Shown: in pieces, positions 1 through 40,857 of the stretch | Position numbering within the stretch: position 1 is the stretch's first letter | Layout of the letters: each line of letters opens with the position of its first letter | From: a virus | IMG/VR virus record: IMGVR_UViG_3300003937_000091 | Coordinates: 1 to 40,857 of that record | Length of the DNA stretch: 40,857 bases | Reading direction: 5' to 3' (one strand) | Notes under the pieces: model-generated | Told to the model about the DNA's origin: nothing | What the model saw: the letters and a program-made list of their open reading frames with translations, nothing else | Database searches by the model: none | Made by a program: the position numbers and the translations under genes

Positions 1-99
1 CTCTTGGTCCATGGCTAACCATTCTAGAACATCTTCTCTCTCTGCTCTAGTTAGGTCATTCCACTGTACAATCTCGTGATTGTACTGGCTACCGCCATC
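1..99. repeat. Terminal direct repeat, left copy
   Basis: The first 99 bases are identical to bases 40759-40857. Joining the copies restores one uninterrupted leftward gene, so the contig is circular as assembled. An exact length of 99 with no mismatch fits a k-mer overlap from the assembler better than a packaged terminal repeat, but sequence alone cannot exclude a real one. Confidence 0.95.
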
Positions 100-339
100 A
101 CCCTCTATGCCACTGTGTCTCATATTTACTGGCATATTGTCTTGGTTAAGGAACTGTGGCTTAAAGTGTTCTACTTTGCATGCCACTGGGTTAGGCCATC
201 TATACTCTGTATTGATACCTAACTTACCTTGTAATTTAGTCCATTTGTTTATAGCTGAAGACGCACTGTCTGCGGTTACCTTGAACGCGTCATGGTAGCC
301 ACTGAAGTTATCTCTAGCTGTTATAATATATGCTTGCAT
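1..339 (-). CDS. Hypothetical early protein, N-terminal 113 residues (gene crosses the contig join)
   Basis: The ATG at 339 follows a strong ribosome site (AAAGGAGATAT) on the minus strand. The frame stays open to base 1 and continues at 40758, where nine more codons (ending ELTPF) reach a TAG at 40729-40731. The full product is 122 aa. It starts MQAYIITARDNFSGYHD and is hydrophilic, with Trp and His scattered through it. I recognise no family. It lies downstream of the SprT-like gene in the leftward early operon, separated by a TGTTTAAACA hairpin. Annotation of the linear contig would lose or truncate it. Confidence 0.85.
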   Translation of the reverse strand, partial: MQAYIITARDNFSGYHDAFKVTADSASSAINKWTKLQGKLGINTEYRWPNPVACKVEHFKPQFLNQDNMPVNMRHSGIEGDGGSQYNHEIVQWNDLTRAEREDVLEWLAMDQE

Positions 340-376
340 ATATCTCCTTTCTGTTTGTGTCTTGATAAATATAATC

Positions 377-406
377 GATAGCTCGCTGTTTAAACAACAA
401 GCTATC
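377..406 (-). terminator. Intergenic hairpin with TGTTTAAACA tip (module 5)
   Basis: On the minus strand GATAGCTTGT and CGAGCTATC flank the palindrome TGTTTAAACA (387-396) and pair almost throughout. The two positions that are not Watson-Crick are G.U on the minus strand and would be A.C on the plus strand, so the hairpin is built for leftward RNA. It sits between the SprT-like gene and the gene crossing the join. It could be a terminator, a processing site or a protein-bound element. There is no clean T-run, so plain termination is uncertain. Confidence 0.6.
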
Positions 407-413
407 TATATAC

Positions 414-1133
414 TTACTTGTAATCTTTTCTAAGATTTTCCGGTAACTCTACAACAGTACTGGAACCGCAAGCCATGCATCTAAAGTTGTCACCAACTTT
501 TCTGTAGACTGCGATAGATACTCTTGCAATCAATCCCCAACCTTGGGCAATTGATTTGTCTGATGAACCTGGGCAACTCTCTGCTCCTGTGCATCGTACT
601 GCAACTGTAGTCGAACCCTTACCGATTTTATCTTCTAACATTTTTGAATGTGGAAGATAACCTAAGCTCTCAATGAAGTCTTTGACTAACAATGTGAACC
701 CTGGGCCTGCAACAGTAGCTGTTGGTTTACCTTCGGCACCTAGATAATTCTTGATTATTCTAGCGAACTTAGGGCCATGGCCGACTTTAGGTGGCAACAC
801 TGCGTGTGTAACTTCGTGGGCTACAACTTGTGCTGTCTCGATACATTCGACTAGGTTACTGGCTCCGAGTGTAGGCTTGATGAAGATTTCTCTATAGTTT
901 CCTGTAGAGTGGCCTTCATAATGGCATACACCGATAGCGTTACCCATCTTGTTACCTGTAGGCATGAACCCCATAGATAATTTAATATTTTCTCTAGGTA
1001 CAACAGGAACATATTCTTCTTTTATTCTATTGTAAAAGAAGTCGGCTACATCGTTGAGCCATTCCTCGCGTGTGCCTTGATATACTTTGTTACCTGTTGG
1101 GTTTTCTGCCAACAATTGTTTTTGTGTATTCAT
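414..1133 (-). CDS. SprT-like zinc metallopeptidase
   Basis: This 239-aa protein has the zinc-peptidase motif HEVTH at residues 106-110 and a further His in GHGPKF (H119), the usual SprT/Wss1-like arrangement. A C-terminal four-Cys ribbon (C181, C187, C219, C222) resembles the zinc ribbon of SprT proteins. Cellular relatives (SPRTN, Wss1) cleave proteins crosslinked to or stalled on DNA, so a role clearing host or phage DNA-protein complexes is plausible, though inferred. The start has AAAGGAG seven bases upstream. It is an early leftward gene, 119 bp downstream of a 38-aa gene and followed by a palindrome-tipped hairpin. Confidence 0.8.
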   Translation of the reverse strand: MNTQKQLLAENPTGNKVYQGTREEWLNDVADFFYNRIKEEYVPVVPRENIKLSMGFMPTGNKMGNAIGVCHYEGHSTGNYREIFIKPTLGASNLVECIETAQVVAHEVTHAVLPPKVGHGPKFARIIKNYLGAEGKPTATVAGPGFTLLVKDFIESLGYLPHSKMLEDKIGKGSTTVAVRCTGAESCPGSSDKSIAQGWGLIARVSIAVYRKVGDNFRCMACGSSTVVELPENLRKDYK

Positions 1134-1168
1134 GTGTCTCCTTTATTGTGTGTCTTACAATAATAGCG

Positions 1169-1185
1169 GGCATAGGATATATGCC
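1169..1185. other. Small hairpin upstream of the SprT-like gene
   Basis: GGCATA and TATGCC form a perfect six-base stem around a five-base loop. It lies in the 119-bp gap between the 38-aa gene and the SprT-like gene, the longest gap among the first early genes, and about 35 bases before the start codon. It may tune translation or mRNA stability. Confidence 0.4.
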
Positions 1186-1220
1186 AACTCCTATTGAATA
1201 GCTTGATATAGCTATCATAA

Positions 1221-1244
1221 AACGCACTGTTTAAACAATGCGTT
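1221..1244 (-). terminator. Intergenic hairpin with TGTTTAAACA tip (module 4)
   Basis: A 24-base near-perfect palindrome: on the minus strand AACGCAT, TGTTTAAACA minus its centre, and GTGCGTT pair over 12 bp, one pair being G.U. It is followed by TTTATGATA on the minus strand, a short U-rich tail consistent with a weak terminator. Compared with module 3 (1697-1720), the stem has C-G where that one has G-C, a compensatory difference that keeps the pairing. Confidence 0.65.
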
Positions 1245-1252
1245 CTAGATAG

Positions 1253-1369
1253 TTATTTAGAAGAAAGTATATCTTCAATTCCATGGTCTCCACAAAAAGG
1301 CGTGCTTACTTCACCCCATGGCGAATTAAATTTAAATACTTCTTTAGTACAATTTTTTTCGTTACACAT
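1253..1369 (-). CDS. Small Cys-containing early protein (38 aa)
   Basis: The ORF begins MCNEKNCTKEVFKFNSPWG and contains two close N-terminal Cys (C2, C7) plus FCGDHG further on (C26, H29), which could bind one metal ion. A canonical AAAGGAG lies eight bases before the ATG and overlaps the end of the upstream 93-aa gene, so the two are probably translated together. It is the same size class as the other tiny Cys proteins of this phage. No family recognised. Confidence 0.7.
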   Translation of the reverse strand: MCNEKNCTKEVFKFNSPWGEVSTPFCGDHGIEDILSSK

Positions 1370-1379
1370 ATTTTCTCCT

Positions 1380-1661
1380 TTATAATATGCTGTCTGTTCT
1401 ACGAATTTGGTCTAATTCATTTACAGCATTTTGCAACATTGTGATTTGTTTCATTAAGTCAATTTGTATTTCTACAACTTGTTCTTTATGTGTCATATCA
1501 CTTTTACCTTTGTAAACAAGTTTTTTATTAGTTTGTAATGAAGCTCTTTCATCAAAATTAACATTTACATTTACAAATGCTGTATTTTCAACTAAAAAGA
1601 TTGTTGTACAATCTCCAATTAAATGAACATTTGGGTCGTCTAGTTTTATATAGCTACTCAT
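1380..1661 (-). CDS. Hypothetical early protein (93 aa)
   Basis: The start chosen is MSSYIKLDDPNVHLIG, which has AAAGGAGAAAAT directly upstream; a longer frame reaching 1703 lacks a ribosome site and would run through the upstream hairpin. The first 50 residues look like beta strands (VNVNVNFDE). The last 35 form a probable amphipathic coiled helix (VEIQIDLMKQITMLQNAVNEL), suggesting oligomerisation. It is in the early leftward operon and ends within the ribosome site of the next gene. No family recognised. Confidence 0.75.
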   Translation of the reverse strand: MSSYIKLDDPNVHLIGDCTTIFLVENTAFVNVNVNFDERASLQTNKKLVYKGKSDMTHKEQVVEIQIDLMKQITMLQNAVNELDQIRRTDSIL

Positions 1662-1696
1662 ATTTTCTCCTTTATCTATTTGTATAAGTATCATAA

Positions 1697-1720
1697 AAGG
1701 CACTGTTTAAACAATGCCTT
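1697..1720 (-). terminator. Intergenic hairpin with TGTTTAAACA tip (module 3)
   Basis: A 24-base palindrome pairing AAGGCAT with GTGCCTT around TGTTTAAACA; the only non-Watson-Crick pair is G.U on the minus strand. It is followed on that strand by TTTATGATACTTATAC, close to the sequence after module 4. It separates the 48-aa gene from the 93-aa gene. Confidence 0.65.
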
Positions 1721-1731
1721 CTAGATAGTTA

Positions 1732-1878
1732 TTATATTGATAGTTTTTTAACGCCATTGTTGCTCAAAACATCTGCTTTGTAATTGTATTCTTTTACTAA
1801 TTCTTTTACATTGTCTTTAGTTACTGTTGTAACTTTGTGCGTAATGGTCCTGTCTTTACCTAATTTAATTTCTATCAC
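1732..1878 (-). CDS. Hypothetical early protein (48 aa, GTG start)
   Basis: The GTG at 1878 has a strong AAAGGAGG eight bases upstream and opens a frame of 48 residues beginning MIEIKLGKDRTITHKVTTV. It is basic and probably a small alpha/beta protein; the spacing and ribosome site match its neighbours in the early leftward operon. No ATG is available at this position. No family recognised. Confidence 0.7.
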   Translation of the reverse strand: MIEIKLGKDRTITHKVTTVTKDNVKELVKEYNYKADVLSNNGVKKLSI

Positions 1879-1944
1879 TGGGCCTCCTTTGTTAGTTGGT
1901 ATAAATACCATAAAACCTTCGAGGGGGTCAAAGGCTCTAGCTAT
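1879..1944 (-). repeat. Duplicated intergenic hairpin module 2
   Basis: On the minus strand this reads stop codon, ATAGCTAGAGCCTT, a C-rich loop, AAGGTTTTATGG, then the palindrome GGTATTTATACC. AGCCTT and AAGGTT pair (one G.U) and are followed by TTAT. Its plus-strand TTGGTATAAATACCATA (1897-1913) and GGCTCTAGCTATTTATA are repeated exactly in module 1 about 195 bp away, although the genes between them are unrelated. Confidence 0.65.
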
Positions 1945-2073
1945 TTATAGTAATTCTTCTGCAATATCGTCAATTAATCCTAAGCACTCATCTTTTTGGG
2001 ATGAGGTAATAAATAGGTCTTCAATAATTGCTGTAAGTTTTGTTAGTCTTTCTTCCATTTTTGTTTCTTCCAT
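1945..2073 (-). CDS. Hypothetical early protein (42 aa)
   Basis: An AAAGGAG seven to eight bases before the ATG and a clean 42-codon frame support this small gene. The product is acidic and mostly helical (MEETKMEERLTKLTAIIEDL, then a second helix ending AEELL). It resembles a small helical-hairpin or inhibitor-type protein, but no family is recognised. It sits between two copies of the same intergenic hairpin module. Confidence 0.7.
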   Translation of the reverse strand: MEETKMEERLTKLTAIIEDLFITSSQKDECLGLIDDIAEELL

Positions 2074-2140
2074 TTTTTCTCCTTTATCTATTGGTATAAA
2101 TACCATAGAACCTTCTAAAGGGGTAGAAGGCTCTAGCTAT
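2074..2140 (-). repeat. Duplicated intergenic hairpin module 1
   Basis: On the minus strand AGCCTTCTA and TAGAAGGTT form a nine-pair stem (one G.U) around the loop CCCCTT, followed by CTATGGTATTTATACC. The stem is longer than that of module 2, but the flanks are the same, including the GGTATTTATACC palindrome just before the ribosome site of the 42-aa gene. Confidence 0.65.
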
Positions 2141-2482
2141 TTATATTTGGTATTCTCTTTCGGCATCTAACATATCTTGGGTAACTTTTTTAACCCAACG
2201 AACAGCCGGTTTAGCTGTTCTGCCTTTCCATGGGCCTTCTAGAATTGTTACGCCTACAGTCTTTTGATTAACTTTAGTAACTCTGCATCTGTAAGAACCA
2301 TCTTTGAATTTAACATTTACAAGGTCTAACTCATTGAATGTTTTTACTTTTGCTCTAGCGTTTCTATCCCACTGAATTTTCATCGCATCCCAAACAACTT
2401 TTAAATCGTCATTGTCTGTAATTCTACGAATATCGTCAATTATTCCAGTTAAATCGTCACCAGTATTTGCGAAATTATTCAT
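2141..2482 (-). CDS. First early protein, SH3/KOW-like C-terminal half (113 aa)
   Basis: This is the first gene after the long leftward leader. AAAGGAGAAAT precedes the ATG. The N-terminal half is acidic and helical (MNNFANTGDDLTGIIDDI). Residues about 50-100 (VNVKFKDGSYRCRVTKV, then GPWKGRTAKPAVRWVKKV) have the strand pattern and Gly/Lys content of a small SH3-like or KOW-like barrel, a fold often used to contact RNA or ribosomal proteins. As the first product after a structured RNA, an RNA-binding or transcription role is possible. That is inference only. Confidence 0.75.
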   Translation of the reverse strand: MNNFANTGDDLTGIIDDIRRITDNDDLKVVWDAMKIQWDRNARAKVKTFNELDLVNVKFKDGSYRCRVTKVNQKTVGVTILEGPWKGRTAKPAVRWVKKVTQDMLDAEREYQI

Positions 2483-3006
2483 ATTTCTCCTTTATATAGT
2501 GCTAATTAATAGCTTGTAACACACAGTTTGAGGTTGCCTAGAAAACCTATTACAAAATGCTTTCGCTTAGATTGTAATACCTTACTATGTGCTACAAGCT
2601 ACCAACTAAGGTAGCTAATAAAGGTTTTAGCTAAGAATGCGTACAGCTAGTAAGGATATATGGCCTGTAAATCTGCAATCTGATTGGGTAACTATCGTCT
2701 AACCTGTGGATGATACTTCGGGCTTAATCTAGGTATCGTTTTAAATATTGTCGAAACTTTCTCAATGGTAGATTTTTTCGCTTATGAGGTCGTGTTATGC
2801 CTTCGGGCCAATCTCGGTGGTCTGAGCCGGATAAAACTCCTTATCGTTAAGAGTGTCTAGGTGTCTCCGGTGGGCTTAGTGGGTAGGTATCTCGGGCCAT
2901 TATGGCGCTTTCCGAGTATTTATTTGCATCCTCTAAGCTGTACTTGTCTCGCTCATTTCCTTAGCTATTTGGGTGAAAGTTAAGGGCCTCTCTACTGTGT
3001 TTGTTA
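2483..3006 (-). ncRNA. Large structured leader RNA of the early operon
   Basis: This 0.5-kb stretch between the promoter at 3013-3041 and the first early ATG has no credible ORF. On the minus strand 2584-2600 pairs with 2511-2527 over 17 bp, two pairs being G.U; on the plus strand those would be A.C. Inside that stem lie an 8-bp hairpin tipped GCGAAAGC (2548-2579) and a 5-bp hairpin (2531-2548). AGCTACC/GGTAGCT (2597-2616) gives an alternative 7-bp stem that shares AGCT with the long one. CTCGG/CCGAG enclosing GCCA/TGGC lies at 2891-2916. It may be a separate RNA or a leader; I cannot assign it to a known family. Confidence 0.65.
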
Positions 3007-3012
3007 TTATTA

Positions 3013-3041
3013 AATATAGGGGGAATGTCTTTACTTGTCAA
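3013..3041 (-). promoter_or_regulatory. Consensus sigma-70-type early promoter
   Basis: On the minus strand TTGACA (3036-3041) and TATATT (3013-3018) are separated by exactly 17 bases, a near-perfect housekeeping promoter. Transcription would start near 3006 and run leftward through the structured leader into the early genes. The TTGACA sits inside the small palindrome CTTGTTGACAAG, which could be an operator. Confidence 0.75.
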
Positions 3042-3107
3042 CAAGCATTGAATGAATGAAGAAAAAACATAGGGTGAAATAGCCTATAATCATTGGGGTT
3101 TCTACTA

Positions 3108-3148
3108 CATCAAAAAAAAACTTTAAATAATCTAAAAAAACTTTGATG
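3108..3148. other. A-rich inverted repeat, candidate unwinding region
   Basis: CATCAAA (3108-3114) and TTTGATG (3142-3148) flank two copies of AAAAAAACTTT. It lies just upstream of the early promoter in the divergent non-coding region. An origin or a bent-DNA regulatory site is possible; no DnaA-type boxes were recognised. Confidence 0.35.
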
Positions 3149-3184
3149 ATTTGCACCACAAAACACCCTAAGACTTTTTCATTA

Positions 3185-3198
3185 GTGAAACATTTCAC
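3185..3198. promoter_or_regulatory. Operator-like palindrome GTGAAA-CA-TTTCAC
   Basis: Six-base arms separated by two bases, typical of a dimeric regulator site, about 150 bp upstream of the early promoter. It occurs in the divergent control region, where a repressor or activator site would be expected. No regulator is identified. Confidence 0.35.
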
Positions 3199-3199
3199 A

Positions 3200-3878
3200 A
3201 GCCGGCTACATCCATTGAAGGAGAAGGAGGAACAGAAGAAAGTTAGTTGTTAAACATTCGGGGGGTATTTGTTTAAATTTCTAATACACTCTTAGCCAAC
3301 CTGTATGAACAGCCAGTCATTAGATATATATTGCACCCATATACACCAACAAAATAAATAAAATTGGTCTTAGAAACTGAAGATAAACAAGGGAGAGGTT
3401 CAATGTTGACACCCATTCTATTATATGTGTACCCTTCAGAGATATGCTGTTAACTAATATAAAACGCACTACAGATAGTGGTGTTCCTTTACTAGCAAGT
3501 TATTACTTATTTAAGATGTTAAGTAGTTCTTACCCTGTGCTACTCCCAACCCAAACCGAATAACTCCATATAGTAGCTATATAACATATGTAGAATAATA
3601 GGCTTTTACCCTAGTTACCATGGTCAGACTAATCCACTTACTTGATGTCTTATCTATTAGATTGTTCTAAAAGTCTGCAATCTAATGTGTTTGTGTAATT
3701 CAACTATACCATAAAAAATATATAGTAAACTGATATAGGGTATTTTTTTTGTAGGCCTCCTTACTTAATTTAATACCCCACATAAATTACAACTATGCTA
3801 TTATTACTAATAGATAGGTAACTTAGGAACCTCACTGGTTTTTCATAAGTTCCTCCTTTCTATTGTGTATGTTAAGTT
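3200..3878. other. Non-coding divergent region, several inverted repeats
   Basis: No convincing gene was found on either strand. It contains a 9-bp hairpin (ATTAGATTG 3656-3664 with CAATCTAAT 3678-3686), a small hairpin with arms CACTA/TAGTG near 3466, and AGGAAC/GTTCCT (3825-3830, 3849-3854). Two minus-strand ribosome-site-like stretches near 3755 and 3850 have no ORF after them except a four-codon one. An untranslated RNA on the plus strand is possible, since terminators follow at 3880 and 4244. Confidence 0.4.
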
Positions 3879-3879
3879 T

Positions 3880-3910
3880 AGGTCCTACTGGCAACAGCAG
3901 GGCCTTTACT
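3880..3910 (+). terminator. Hairpin with GCAA tetraloop and U-rich tail
   Basis: AGGTCCT (3880-3886) pairs with AGGGCCT (3899-3905), one pair being U.G only on the plus strand. An inner CTG/CAG stem carries a GCAA tetraloop, and TTTACTTTA follows. The wobble shows plus-strand RNA. It may end a short rightward transcript or protect the 5' end of the 33-aa gene that follows. Confidence 0.5.
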
Positions 3911-3928
3911 TTATGGTATAGTTTCTTA

Positions 3929-4030
3929 ATGGATTATGTAAGCGTAGAAGATTGTGATATTTGTTTGCATCCTTATTGGGCTGACCAGTTAATGGATGGT
4001 GTATGTGAGAACTGCCAACAGTTTACATAA
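3929..4030 (+). CDS. Cys-rich microprotein (33 aa)
   Basis: The frame reads MDYVSVEDCDICLHPYWAD and ends CENCQQFT. The pairs CDIC and CENC, 14 residues apart, form a complete four-Cys zinc-knuckle pattern. No clear ribosome site precedes the ATG, which lowers confidence. It lies between two plus-strand hairpins, in a region otherwise without genes. A regulatory zinc finger would fit this control region, but the function is unknown. Confidence 0.5.
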   Translation: MDYVSVEDCDICLHPYWADQLMDGVCENCQQFT

Positions 4031-4240
4031 AAAATTTTTTTCACCCTACTTAAATTACTAGCAGTAGTAGATTAGGTATACCTGGAAAATCCAGGTGGAG
4101 CTATGAGGATAGCTTCTATTTATAATAAGAAAGAAAAACTTTTCATCTAAGAAACAGTATGTGGTGTACAGTGTAATGGAGAAATGTTTTTGTGGATTGT
4201 TATATTTTTCATAACAGTAATGGACGACTGTACGATGACA

Positions 4241-4263
4241 GAGCCTCGCTTCGGCGGGGTTTT
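4241..4263 (+). terminator. Rho-independent terminator with UUCG loop
   Basis: CCTCGC (4244-4249) and GCGGGG (4254-4259) pair around TTCG, giving the very stable C(UUCG)G loop, and TTTT follows at 4260-4263. The orientation is rightward. It insulates the late arm from any transcript starting in the divergent region. Confidence 0.8.
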
Positions 4264-4264
4264 G

Positions 4265-4273
4265 TGTTATGAT
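4265..4273 (+). promoter_or_regulatory. Extended -10 promoter for the late arm (TGTTATGAT)
   Basis: TG-N-TATGAT directly after the terminator matches an extended -10 element; no -35 is visible because the terminator occupies that position. Transcription would start near 4280, about 20 bases before the first late gene, whose ribosome site is GAAAGGA. Similar TGnTATAAT boxes occur at 22486 and 31244. Confidence 0.5.
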
Positions 4274-4298
4274 AAGAGAAAGATTTGAAAGGAATATT

Positions 4299-4370
4299 AT
4301 GCCAAAAGGAATTGGATACCCAAAGGGAATGCCTAAAAAGAAAAAAGCTAAAAAGAAAAAGAAAAAGTAA
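4299..4370 (+). CDS. Lysine-rich mini-protein (23 aa)
   Basis: The product starts MPKGIGYPKGMPKKKK and is more than half lysine. AAAGGA lies upstream and the stop overlaps the next ATG (TAATG), the junction used throughout the late arm. Very small basic proteins next to head genes occur in many marine phages; a nucleic-acid-binding or capsid-interior role is a guess. Confidence 0.6.
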   Translation: MPKGIGYPKGMPKKKKAKKKKKK

Positions 4371-4627
4371 TGGCCGAGTTTCAAGGTAAATCTGTATCTT
4401 TAAATAAACCTTCCAGGATTGGTAAAGGTGAACCAGGTCATGGTCGAAAGAAATTTAAAGTGTATGTTAAGGATGGCGACAAAGTTAAGAAAGTAATGTT
4501 CGGCGACCCTAACATGGAGATAAGAAAAGATAACCCGGCAGCTAGGAAATCATTTCGTGCTAGACACAAATGTGATACAGCATCGGATAAGACAAGTGCA
4601 AGATATTGGTCTTGCAAAATGTGGTAG
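4370..4627 (+). CDS. Conserved small basic phage protein (85 aa)
   Basis: The protein is strongly basic. Its C-terminal half has a sequence I recognise from many marine and large viruses: FGDPNMEIRKDNPAARKSF, then RHKCD and YWSCKMW. The function of that family is not established. The ATG overlaps the previous stop by one base. The two Cys in the conserved region may be structural. It is placed just ahead of the terminase, so a head or packaging link is plausible but not shown. Confidence 0.75.
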   Translation: MAEFQGKSVSLNKPSRIGKGEPGHGRKKFKVYVKDGDKVKKVMFGDPNMEIRKDNPAARKSFRARHKCDTASDKTSARYWSCKMW

Positions 4628-4634
4628 GAGAAAT

Positions 4635-4766
4635 ATGGCCGGTAAAAGAGTAACTTGGAAGTGGGGCAACAAAACTTATAGTGGAACTTTAATTAGAGAA
4701 ACTAAAACACATAAGTACGCCAGGACCAAGAATGGTAAAACTAAGGTTATACGAAAAAAAGTTTAA
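4635..4766 (+). CDS. Small basic protein (43 aa)
   Basis: The start at 4635 (MAGKRVTWKWGNKTYSGTLI) has TAGGAG six bases upstream. A longer frame from an upstream TTG or ATG would overlap the preceding gene without a ribosome site. It has a predicted beta-hairpin pattern with many Lys, Arg and Thr, like a small SH3-like nucleic-acid binder. No family recognised. Confidence 0.65.
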   Translation: MAGKRVTWKWGNKTYSGTLIRETKTHKYARTKNGKTKVIRKKV

Positions 4767-4868
4767 TTGAAAGTAGCATGCCCTAAGTGTGGCCTATACT
4801 TAATATACGATATAGACAGGGAAAAAGTAACTTGTTTAAACAAAGAGTGCGAGGATTATTCTAAATGA
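4767..4868 (+). CDS. Zinc-ribbon microprotein (33 aa, TTG start)
   Basis: Directly after the TAA of the 43-aa gene, a TTG opens a frame that reads KVACPKCGLYLIYDID and ends CLNKECEDYSK. CPKC and CLNKEC make a classic zinc ribbon. Its TGA overlaps the terminase ATG (ATGA), implying coupled translation. The weak point is the TTG start without a good ribosome site; reinitiation from the upstream stop would explain it. One TGTTTAAACA copy (4833-4842) lies inside. Confidence 0.55.
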   Translation: MKVACPKCGLYLIYDIDREKVTCLNKECEDYSK

Positions 4869-6781
4869 CAAATGTTAAGTTATGTTTTGCACAATCTTGT
4901 CATAATGTATTAAAAGCACCTAAACGAAAGTTTTGTTCTGCTACTTGTTCTAAGGCCTACCATAATAAAAAATTTTACGCCCAACAACAAGGTGCTGTCT
5001 ATGAACCTGAACACGATGGTAAACCTGTAGCACAACCTAATGTACAAAAAAGAAGAGGTGTCGTTTATGACGCCCTTATAGAAAAAGACTTAGGACCCCT
5101 TATTCTTAAAGGTGATTTAAAAAAACAAGACGCTGCAGAAATCTTAGGCTGTACAAAAGCTGCTTTATCTTATGCGTATGCTGCATGGATAGAAGATATG
5201 GAGACAAAAGAAAAAGCAGAGAACTGGACTTTACCTGCTAAAGCAGAGAAGTCATTAGCTGACTTTAAAATATTTAGAGATAGGTATTTTCAAACAGAAA
5301 CTGGTGAACCCTATCAAACTCCGGAGTTTCACATTAGATGGATTAAATCTATTCTTGAAGCTATAGAACATGGAAATCAACAGATGATACTATCTCCTCC
5401 TCGACATGGCAAGACTGACCTACTAATTCATTTTGCAGTATGGCTTATAATCAAGAACCCTAATGTTAGAATATTGTGGGTAGGTGGTAATGAAGAGATA
5501 TCTAAGAATGCTGTCGCTTCAGTAATAGACCAGTTAGAGAACAATGAAAAACTTATCGAAGAACTCTGCCCACCTGGAAAAAGTTTTAAACCAACTAGCA
5601 GAGCAGGAAAAGCGTGGTCGCAAAGTGGGTTTACTGTTGGTACTCGTACTGTTACCGGGATTAAGTCTCCTACCATGGTTGGTATCGGTCGGGGTGGAAA
5701 AATTCTTTCACGAGATTGTGATATTATCATAGGCGATGACTTAGAGGACCACTCTTCTACAATGCAACCTGCATCGAGAGAGAACACAAGAACCTGGTGG
5801 ACAACAACATTATCTTCTCGAAAAGAAGAACATACAGCTTTAATTGTTATTGGCTCCAGGCAACACTATGACGATTTATATTCTCATCTACTAGACAACG
5901 AAAGTTGGAATACGATAGTAGAAGAGGCACACGATACAGGATGTACTTTACCCGACTGGAATGATGAAGCTCACCAGGACTGTATGTTGTGGGCAAAGAA
6001 AAGAACTTACAAGTGGTTAATGGGTAGAAAGTCTGCTGCAGAGACTACTGGTGGTAGAGCAATTTACGAAATGGTTTATCTTAATGTTGCTATGCCTGAT
6101 GGTATGGCCTTATTCGACAGCGTAGAAATAGAAGCATGTCGAGACCAAAGTAGAGAAATTGGGCAGGTACCTGCAGGAGTTAGGTTAATTGCAGGACTTG
6201 ACCCGGCATCAGTCGGATATCAAGCTGCATTTTTATGGGGTTATGACCAGGCATCTAACAAATTGTATATGATTGATATGGAAAACTCACTTGGAGGTGG
6301 TATTCCACAAGCACTTAAAATAATTAAAGAATGGTTTGTGAAATACAATCTCTCTCATTGGGTTATTGAAGAGAATGGTTTTCAGCGTGCAATTAGACAA
6401 GACCAATCTATTAGAGACTTTGCAGGTAAGCATGGTATCTTCTTAGAAGGAACGCAGACTTATTCTAATAAACACGACCCAATATTTGGTGTTACAGCAA
6501 TGAGACCATTGTTTGAACAAAAATTAATTTCTTTGCCATACCTTGGCTTTGAGGCCCAAGAAAAGGTAAACTTATATAAAAGTCAGTTAGTGTATTTCAG
6601 TTCTGCTCAAAACAAGAGTAGGTCAGTAGGACAAAAGTCTGACTTAGTAATGGCTAGTTGGTTCCCAATGAAAACTATTCGTAGACTTCAGAAGGAAAGA
6701 CTTGCTACAATGGGACTTGAATATGAGCCATCTTTTGGTGGGTATGAAGGTAGTAACATGGATTTGGATAATTGGAGATAA
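4865..6781 (+). CDS. terL: Terminase large subunit
   Basis: This 638-aa DNA-packaging motor has Walker A SPPRHGKT near residue 177, Walker B IIIGDD near 288, and nuclease motifs GLDPASVG (about 444), VIEENG (about 500) and SDLVMA (about 592). The N-terminus is unusual: a four-Cys cluster (C7, C12, C24, C28) followed by a helix-turn-helix-like stretch at about 80-105 (KKQDAAEILGCTKAALSYAY). No separate small terminase gene was recognised, so this extension may supply DNA recognition. That part is inference. Confidence 0.95.
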   Translation: MTNVKLCFAQSCHNVLKAPKRKFCSATCSKAYHNKKFYAQQQGAVYEPEHDGKPVAQPNVQKRRGVVYDALIEKDLGPLILKGDLKKQDAAEILGCTKAALSYAYAAWIEDMETKEKAENWTLPAKAEKSLADFKIFRDRYFQTETGEPYQTPEFHIRWIKSILEAIEHGNQQMILSPPRHGKTDLLIHFAVWLIIKNPNVRILWVGGNEEISKNAVASVIDQLENNEKLIEELCPPGKSFKPTSRAGKAWSQSGFTVGTRTVTGIKSPTMVGIGRGGKILSRDCDIIIGDDLEDHSSTMQPASRENTRTWWTTTLSSRKEEHTALIVIGSRQHYDDLYSHLLDNESWNTIVEEAHDTGCTLPDWNDEAHQDCMLWAKKRTYKWLMGRKSAAETTGGRAIYEMVYLNVAMPDGMALFDSVEIEACRDQSREIGQVPAGVRLIAGLDPASVGYQAAFLWGYDQASNKLYMIDMENSLGGGIPQALKIIKEWFVKYNLSHWVIEENGFQRAIRQDQSIRDFAGKHGIFLEGTQTYSNKHDPIFGVTAMRPLFEQKLISLPYLGFEAQEKVNLYKSQLVYFSSAQNKSRSVGQKSDLVMASWFPMKTIRRLQKERLATMGLEYEPSFGGYEGSNMDLDNWR

Positions 6782-36635: not shown

Positions 36636-36921
36636 TTCTTATCCTCTTCTGCTCTGCTTTCTTCATTGATAACTCAACTAGATAAGCTCCGCACTCTTTG
36701 TTTGATTTCTCCATGGTTCTTTCATCCATCATCTTAATGATTGCACCACAGAAATAGTTTCCACTATTGTCATAGTAAATAGCCCTGTTGCCAGGGCATC
36801 TACCATTAACTTTGCATTTAGTATCGGGCATAGGAGCAACATCAAAATTGTGATTAGGATATTTCTCCTTTAGCTTTGCCTTTAACTTATCTAGTGGGAA
36901 CGATGGCTGTTCTAGAGCCAT
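36616..36921 (-). CDS. Cys-containing hypothetical protein (101 aa)
   Basis: It starts MALEQPSFPLDKLKAKLKEK. Cysteines at CKVNGRC, FCGA and ECGAY could bind metal or form a small zinc fold; the ends are basic helices (ELSMKKAEQKRIRNVQP). It overlaps the Rad52-like gene by 10 bases and the lysozyme-like gene by 20, indicating tight coupling. No family recognised. Confidence 0.7.
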   Translation of the reverse strand: MALEQPSFPLDKLKAKLKEKYPNHNFDVAPMPDTKCKVNGRCPGNRAIYYDNSGNYFCGAIIKMMDERTMEKSNKECGAYLVELSMKKAEQKRIRNVQPLR

Positions 36922-37850
36922 GTGCTAGGTACTTCCTTGTCACCTTTGCCACCAATGTATCCACCCCATCCACATCCATTAGCCGCCGGTCTATATTTCG
37001 GGTCATTCTTTTCACACATAAAGTCCGGTAAGTTTTTAATACCACTACCTTCGGGTGCCTCTGCTTTCTTGACACGCATATCTGTTATGTCTTCTGTCTT
37101 TCCACACTTAGGGCATGGCTTTAAGCTACCACTGTTATCAACTACTTCTCCAAATACTTCCTCGACTGTGTCGATTAGTGCTTTAGGTGTAGCTGATTGG
37201 TACTGTACAAACAAGTCTAAGTACGCATCGAAATCTTGGTCTGTCCATTTGCTAACATCTTTTTCTTTATTAGCTTTTGTCCAGTCATCCCATGATTGTT
37301 TTTTAATTGCTTTTCTTGTCTCCTCTAAAGGTTCGTGAAAGGCAAGTGCTTCTCTTAGTCTATTCAACATATCACTTGGGTCTTCGTCTAAGAACTTATC
37401 ACTTGGTTTTGTTATGTTAGGTGTAGCTGATTTTTGTGGGAACTTCTCTACGCTTTTGTTGGCGTAGTGTTCTTCCTCTGTAACCTCACCTGTCCATAAG
37501 TGTAGTCCAATACCATGACGCATTGCTCCACGCTTTAGTGCATCCGACATACATAGCTTTAGTAACTCACCTTCGGTATTGTTATTCTTTACATCAACGC
37601 TATCGACATCACCGACTTCGTCATGTGTTACACCGAACAGTGTGAATGAAGTTACTACAGCTCTGATACTTCCTTCTTTATCTCTTGCAATTTCTTTTAA
37701 TGTATGGCTCCACTCACCATAAGCAACATCGTTAAGTCTCTTAGTGACTAGGTGATGAGGTACATAAGAACCGAACTTACCTTTGGGTGGTGGCTTTACT
37801 TCGTCTTTACTGAATGGCTTTGTTAAGGCCTTCTTTATTTTATCGTCCAT
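36912..37850 (-). CDS. Rad52-like single-strand annealing protein with C-terminal zinc ribbon
   Basis: In this 312-aa protein the first 120 residues match Rad52-like recombinases: YVPHHLVTKRLNDVAYGEW, the VTSFTLFG strand, GDVDS, and LLKLCMSDALKRGAMRHGIG followed by LHLW. The middle (150-240) is a charged helical spacer. A zinc ribbon follows, with CPKC at 246-249 and Cys at 279 and 293. GGAGG lies before the ATG. It would anneal strands in recombination-dependent replication, possibly with the nearby nuclease. Because no polymerase is encoded, it is probably the phage's main DNA-handling protein. Confidence 0.8.
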   Translation of the reverse strand: MDDKIKKALTKPFSKDEVKPPPKGKFGSYVPHHLVTKRLNDVAYGEWSHTLKEIARDKEGSIRAVVTSFTLFGVTHDEVGDVDSVDVKNNNTEGELLKLCMSDALKRGAMRHGIGLHLWTGEVTEEEHYANKSVEKFPQKSATPNITKPSDKFLDEDPSDMLNRLREALAFHEPLEETRKAIKKQSWDDWTKANKEKDVSKWTDQDFDAYLDLFVQYQSATPKALIDTVEEVFGEVVDNSGSLKPCPKCGKTEDITDMRVKKAEAPEGSGIKNLPDFMCEKNDPKYRPAANGCGWGGYIGGKGDKEVPSTWL

Positions 37851-40728: not shown

Positions 40729-40857
40729 CTAAAAGGGCGTAAGCTCATCGTCTTTGGTCTCTTGGTCCATGGCTAACCATTCTAGAACATCTTCTCTCTC
40801 TGCTCTAGTTAGGTCATTCCACTGTACAATCTCGTGATTGTACTGGCTACCGCCATC
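40729..40857 (-). CDS. C-terminal part of the gene crossing the contig join
   Basis: The second copy of the 99-base repeat plus 30 further bases encode the last 42 residues of the 122-aa early protein, ending at TAG 40729-40731 after ELTPF. It is the same gene as at 1-339; only the residues from 40758 to 40732 are unique to this end. Confidence 0.85.
   Translation of the reverse strand, partial: DGGSQYNHEIVQWNDLTRAEREDVLEWLAMDQETKDDELTPF
40759..40857. repeat. Terminal direct repeat, right copy
   Basis: Identical to bases 1-99. See the left copy: it marks circular closure of the assembly. Confidence 0.95.

Follow-up and report, generated by a model that had tools for sequence, protein, structure and literature searches.

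A covarying, structured leader RNA at the head of a leftward operon in uncultured, mainly marine phages

In the early mRNA of phage T7, hairpins that are RNase III sites separate segments of the transcript and directly precede ribosome-binding sites. Among the RNAs that phages encode, GOLLD and ROOL often adjoin tRNA islands; a ROOL example is 659 nt in length, while GOLLD often exceeds 800 nt (PMC12286853). The put RNA of HK022 is a phage early leader of another kind, ~70 nt in length with two stem-loops, which needs no phage protein and suppresses pausing and termination in cis via the zinc-binding domain of the RNA polymerase beta′ subunit (PMC9378689). Here I describe a leader RNA of a phage that was compared with these three systems.

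The window, that is, the whole stretch of phage DNA analysed, is 40,857 bases in length and has an exact 99-bp terminal direct repeat (1-99 and 40759-40857). Its ends are read straight across in the relatives L001, L003, L004, and L090. Thus, the window is a complete circular map of ~40.76 kb. The record is classed as linear despite the repeat, and its genome is effectively complete and circularly mapped. The terminase and the long rightward genes start from 4865, and the leftward genes run from 2482 to 1 and continue from 40857 to 35798. The leader is the head of this 7.5-kb leftward operon, which includes the genes of an SprT-like protein (417-1133) and of a Rad52/Erf-like annealing protein (36915-37850). 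Judging from its gene content and layout only, the operon is probably early. The consensus promoter that a preliminary description placed ahead of the leader was verified (Table 1). It is the best sigma-70-like site in a scan of 1-5000 and the only strong promoter of the operon; in a scan of 35.7-40.9 kb, the best sites have nine of 12 matches, which is not above chance.

Table 1. Positions of the leader RNA, the neighbouring RNA2, and associated features in the window
Feature	Position	Strand	Remark
First leftward ORF, 113 aa	2141..2482	-	No Pfam or PHROG match
Shine-Dalgarno AAAGGAG of the first ORF	2487..2493	-	Sequence
Separate hairpin before the first Shine-Dalgarno	2510..2601	-	17-bp stem of the preliminary description; variable interior
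Alternative 7-bp hairpin AGCUACC/GGUAGCU	2597..2616	-	Arms 2597-2603/2610-2616; shares AGCU with the stem
Conserved core of the leader RNA, ~370 nt	2637..3006	-	R1 match and covariation; transcription start inferred
Terminal hairpin UACAG (2669-2665)/CUGUA (2646-2642), then CGCA	2638..2669	-	3′ end of the core
Conserved single-stranded motif CCUCAUAAGCGAAAAA	2774..2789	-
Element IV, small hairpin GCC-CGAA-GGC	2799..2808	-	Often GNRA-capped
Element III, hairpin CCGGA/UCCGG with inner ACUCUU/AAGGAGU	2827..2870	-
Element II, stem GCUUAG/CUAAGC around the conserved CAAYUAAAUA segment	2874..2938	-	Window copy CAAAUAAAUA
Element I pseudoknot, hairpin loop CCUUA (2985-2981) with UAAGG (2963-2959)	2959..2985	-
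Element I, 5′ hairpin GAGAG/CUUUC	2975..2992	-	8 different strand pairs in relatives
Sigma-70-like promoter TTGACA-17-TATATT	3013..3041	-	11/12 matches; drives the leader; conserved in relatives' leaders
Dyad CAAY-N4-GTTG	3039..3050	-	Overlaps the -35 box; CAATGCTTGTTG in the window
RNA2	3410..3708	-	TATAGT promoter-like element at 3708-3703; R2 match 3578-3696
RNA2 hairpin and its loop pseudoknot	3686-3678/3664-3656; 3677-3672/3630-3625	-

The CAAY-N4-GTTG dyad at the promoter is a possible operator of an early regulator. It takes the form CAAC-N4-GTTG in L033, L042, L045, L023, L164, and L200. The motif occurs nine times in the window (3.3 expected), and one copy lies on the -35 box of a second leftward promoter-like site (1185-1196, minus strand). 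The palindrome GTTTAAAC has 15 sites in the window (1.5 expected), e.g., at 388, 1229, 4834, 33312, and 35777. It is often located in hairpins between cistrons or, with a TAA in frame, where genes end, and in the relatives it is also found 12-13 nt before TATAnT-like boxes.

The phage group that carries the leader is uncultured and mainly marine. No nucleotide relative of the window was found among annotated phages, and the terminase matches among deposited phages are all <60% identical (best ~24%), with no close isolate; the terminase relatives in MAG contigs are three and of mixed taxonomy. Among the listed titles and abstracts of papers on put, GOLLD/ROOL, pelagiphage RNAs, and RNase III, no description of the leader or of RNA2 was found.

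Is the leader a relative of GOLLD or ROOL, the RNAs that its size and phage context had called to mind? All three are phage-encoded, large, structured, pseudoknotted non-coding RNAs of unexplained function (PMC12286853), and on this likeness the leader might be a divergent ornate RNA of the type that assembles RNA-only cages. However, a search of the window and ten relatives against 4227 Rfam families, including GOLLD and ROOL, gave zero matches at gathering thresholds, and at a permissive E<10 it gave chance matches only, nothing bacterial. There is no tRNA gene in the window. Moreover, unlike GOLLD and ROOL, the leader has only about half their length, with a core of ~370 nt, and heads a protein operon in which a separate hairpin and then an ORF follow. 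Kinship with GOLLD or ROOL was thus not borne out, and a cage-forming RNA of this type is very improbable here.

Close relatives were collected via the first-ORF protein, and divergent ones via the terminase, RNA patterns, and DNA patterns. The close relatives are ~92% identical over the entire region, and iterated nhmmer detected the leader in 24 distinct sequences. A structure based on MAFFT only had nearly no consensus fold across all subgroups, because MAFFT misaligned the subgroups. One AT-rich subgroup of eight divergent relatives was aligned alone (alignment A3) and is the basis of the covariance model R1. The E-values of these covariance models are rough. R1, which was built without the window, matches the minus strand of the window at 2774-2995 with 64.4 bits (E=1.1e-12) and also matches the GC-richer L027, L023, and L200 types (E ~1e-9). 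Further leaders were found in L216-L218 and L227-L229, and those of L224 and L219, which lie outside the significant range of the model, were recognised by the motif and the curated helices.

In A3, 87.7% of the cells are paired, two-sided changes occur in 16 pairs, and covariation scores 0.464 versus 0.186 ± 0.021 for shuffled alignments and at most 0.156 for slid structures; the leader sequences are related, and the shuffle counts are not to be read as probabilities. A consensus fold computed de novo from seven relatives reached -63.2 versus -35.3 ± 4.0 with shuffled columns (z=-7). A larger alignment of 23 distinct sequences (A4) has two-sided changes in 29 of the 31 modelled pairs, 86.4% of cells paired, and a covariation score of 0.489 versus 0.172 ± 0.013 when shuffled, but it was fitted to the model and includes the training rows and two weak matches (E ~0.5), so that A3 is the cleaner test. 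The leader thus evolves as a structure, with pairing kept while letters change. Conserved pairing in homologues, the lack of which would by its own account have refuted the preliminary description, is found in A3, in A4, and in the R1 match. Given the strength of the covariation, the leader is almost certainly a real structured RNA on the minus strand.

The conserved heart of this RNA is its 5′ ~370 nt, and the earlier reading missed the pseudoknot formed there by the loop of the 5′ hairpin. The element is composed of this loop pseudoknot, then several small hairpins in a row, and finally a terminal hairpin with CGCA after it. The helices were read by hand in 21 sequences, a reading that may be biased. 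In element I, the hairpin is paired in 79 of the 82 cells of the hand-read table and in 96.8% as a helix of A4, and the pseudoknot, which is also a helix of the A3 structure, is formed by ten different complementary strand pairs without a mispaired cell. A blind search for complementarity between the loop and the downstream sequence scored 82, while shuffles scored 56.6 ± 3.0 with a maximum of 65 in 500, the rows being related. Element II has an optional inserted GC-rich hairpin (CUCGG/CCGAG), which is absent or different in L033 and L042 and reads UUCUC/GAGAA in L093. The outer stem of element III has 12 different strand pairs, all of which pair (94.5% paired in A4), and its loop is GUGUAA in many relatives. 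Element IV has nine different strand pairs, again all pairing (93.9% in A4). AGCGAAAAA is kept in nearly all leaders. The 3′ domain of the core is full in the window and L027 and shortened in L033 and L042. The terminal hairpin has ten different strand pairs and a single mispaired cell among 81. A thermodynamic fold had suggested another pairing, of GUACAGCU (2943-2936) with AGCUGUAC (2648-2641). This pairing was rejected, since the 3′ partner is ACCCC in L095 while the 5′ side is still GUACAG; the terminal hairpin covaries instead.

The ~500 bases without genes at this place were confirmed: neither strand of 2483-3006 has an ORF of at least 50 aa. Counted from start to stop, the longest frame of the window core has 17 codons, and the relatives have no reading frame in common, which rules out a small-protein coding region. 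The minus strand of the whole region folds with z=-4.48 and the plus strand with z=-2.33. Most of this energy signal comes from the 3′ hairpin region (2483-2636, z=-4.56), and the core alone has a modest z=-1.76. Thus, it is covariation rather than energy that proves the core. The leader has 39 G.U cells and 23 A.C cells (147 and 4 in RNA2), and this excess of G.U supports the minus strand. The original proposal that the operon on the leftward strand is headed by a large, structured RNA is upheld. The leader is flanked by divergent gene blocks, with an AT-rich tract nearby, and the close relatives are alike throughout, which would also suit a DNA-level element such as a replication origin or a protein-binding array, or an unrecognised coding region. 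However, two-sided compensatory changes, a one-strand G.U excess, and a lack of conserved frames are signatures of RNA. A DNA-level element is contradicted by the covariation, and neither it nor a hidden coding region is a credible account of the locus.

Between the core and the first ribosome-binding site lies a separate hairpin. When its arms are taken as 2601-2588 and 2523-2510, 14 of 14 pairs form, and the arms extend to a 25-nt arm pair with 80% complementarity plus G.U. The stem covaries, with 13-15 of 14-15 pairs formed in six variants, and the outer UAGCUUG/CAAGCUA is common to the window clade and L042/L135. The inner hairpin TATTACAA/TTGTAATA with its GCGAAAGC loop is present in the window. 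On the other hand, every relative has a different interior (2524-2587, minus strand) within the conserved stem; thus, the GNRA hairpin is private to the window. The long stem and GNRA hairpin of the preliminary description exist, and the stem covaries, but they are separate from the conserved heart of the RNA. The interior resembles a hypervariable insertion spot. In the window clade, the hairpin is long enough for a good RNase III substrate, and in L027/L033 it has only ~11-12 bp. Of the whole locus, only this 3′ hairpin is comparable to the RNase III sites of T7, and, unlike in T7, a cut at it would leave a conserved non-coding RNA on the upstream side.

The 7-bp stem that shares AGCU with the long hairpin is also real, and the two are mutually exclusive. 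A swap between them might turn translation or transcription of the first ORF on or off, as in a riboswitch, and pairing between the base of the 3′ hairpin and the Shine-Dalgarno sequence is possible in several subgroups. However, the accessibility of the Shine-Dalgarno sequence is overall not below that of shuffled linkers (the share of shuffles that do not exceed the observed value ranges from 0.03 to 0.90), and no intrinsic-terminator-like site was found in the leader. It thus has neither form of the expression platform of a riboswitch or attenuator, terminator or sequestered Shine-Dalgarno, and the switch proposed earlier for the competing stems found no support. The 7-bp hairpin is confined to close relatives, with no covariation or conservation found beyond them, and the hypervariable hairpin interior also speaks against a switch. 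Nor does the leader precede a consistent gene family. The leaders of the window and L090 are ~91% identical and those of L219 and L224 96% identical, while the first ORFs in each pair are unrelated, and at least eight mutually unrelated first-ORF groups follow the leaders in other phages. Since near-identical leaders precede unrelated first genes, the leader does not serve as a dedicated switch of the first ORF. It goes with no particular downstream gene, and a riboswitch-like leader is improbable.

The reading preferred here is that of an autonomous early structured non-coding RNA of ~370 nt, which would be cut from the operon mRNA at the hairpin and act in trans; I give it about an even chance. 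It is preferred because the leader is non-coding, has no tie to the first gene, has no Shine-Dalgarno sequestration above shuffles, and has no terminator. From its own sigma-70-like promoter, the leader would be made as the 5′ end of the leftward operon. The covarying hairpin before the first ribosome-binding site may serve its release from the downstream mRNA, or insulation against it, by RNase III-like processing. The released RNA would then act in trans early in infection and most likely bind a protein of the host or of the phage; candidate partners are RNA polymerase and a ribosome or RNase component.

The constant position of the leader at the operon head fits a cis-acting role equally well, and the main rival is an operon-wide antiterminator like put, in which the folded nascent RNA would stay on RNA polymerase and resist pauses and terminators through the operon. 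As with put, a structured RNA lies directly 3′ of a phage early promoter, here the only strong one of the operon, and is indifferent to the downstream gene; put also provides the precedent of a phage early leader that works without a phage protein (PMC9378689). Terminator-like sites on both strands around the operon outnumber those in shuffles, but the minus-strand sites have weak T-tracts. Unlike put with its ~70-nt form of two stem-loops, the leader has a more elaborate core of about fivefold length, which includes a pseudoknot and six or more helices, and the leader-less relatives L070 and L063 keep the leftward operon in the same place. Such an antiterminator is therefore possible but rather unlikely.

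A second RNA, RNA2, adjoins the leader just upstream and is conserved even more strongly. In close relatives it is 100% identical over ~200 nt, and it is found in at least 120 viral contigs. In 62 distinct sequences, 98.7% of the cells are paired (score 0.468 versus 0.181 ± 0.008). The loop pseudoknot is 100% paired in all 62, with covariation at four of the six positions and variants such as CAGACU/AGUCUG, CCUGCU/AGCAGG, and CCAGCU/AGCUGG. RNA2 has no match in Rfam, and its pattern was not found in cellular genome contigs; a weak match (E=0.0017) was seen in a MAG contig of the Rhodobacteraceae, next to a terminase of 51% identity. L224 has the leader without an RNA2 match, in the same place relative to the terminase-side genes. 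In L224, the space equivalent to RNA2 (~2000-1450, minus strand) is other gene-free sequence, which might hold a different RNA. A four-codon ORF, ATGAAAAACCAGTGA (3832-3846, minus strand), has a strong Shine-Dalgarno sequence and lies inside a GGAAC/GTTCC hairpin. It is kept as MKNQ, MKNL, or MNKL in relatives, and is a possible candidate for a leader peptide.

The leader and RNA2 each have their own promoter-like site and a 5′ hairpin-loop pseudoknot. As a tentative idea, they may be two unrelated new families that form a two-RNA module, which would act when infection begins and commandeer a host machine (such as RNA polymerase or the ribosome) throughout this uncultured, mainly marine clade. 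Few large structured RNAs are known from phages, and most of them are unexplained. The leader is an RNA family without an Rfam match that shows strong covariation, is fixed at the operon head, and is indifferent to the gene that follows, and RNA2 is a second, broader family beside it. With covariance models and defined boundaries for both, their expression and function become directly testable in metatranscriptomes and in vitro.
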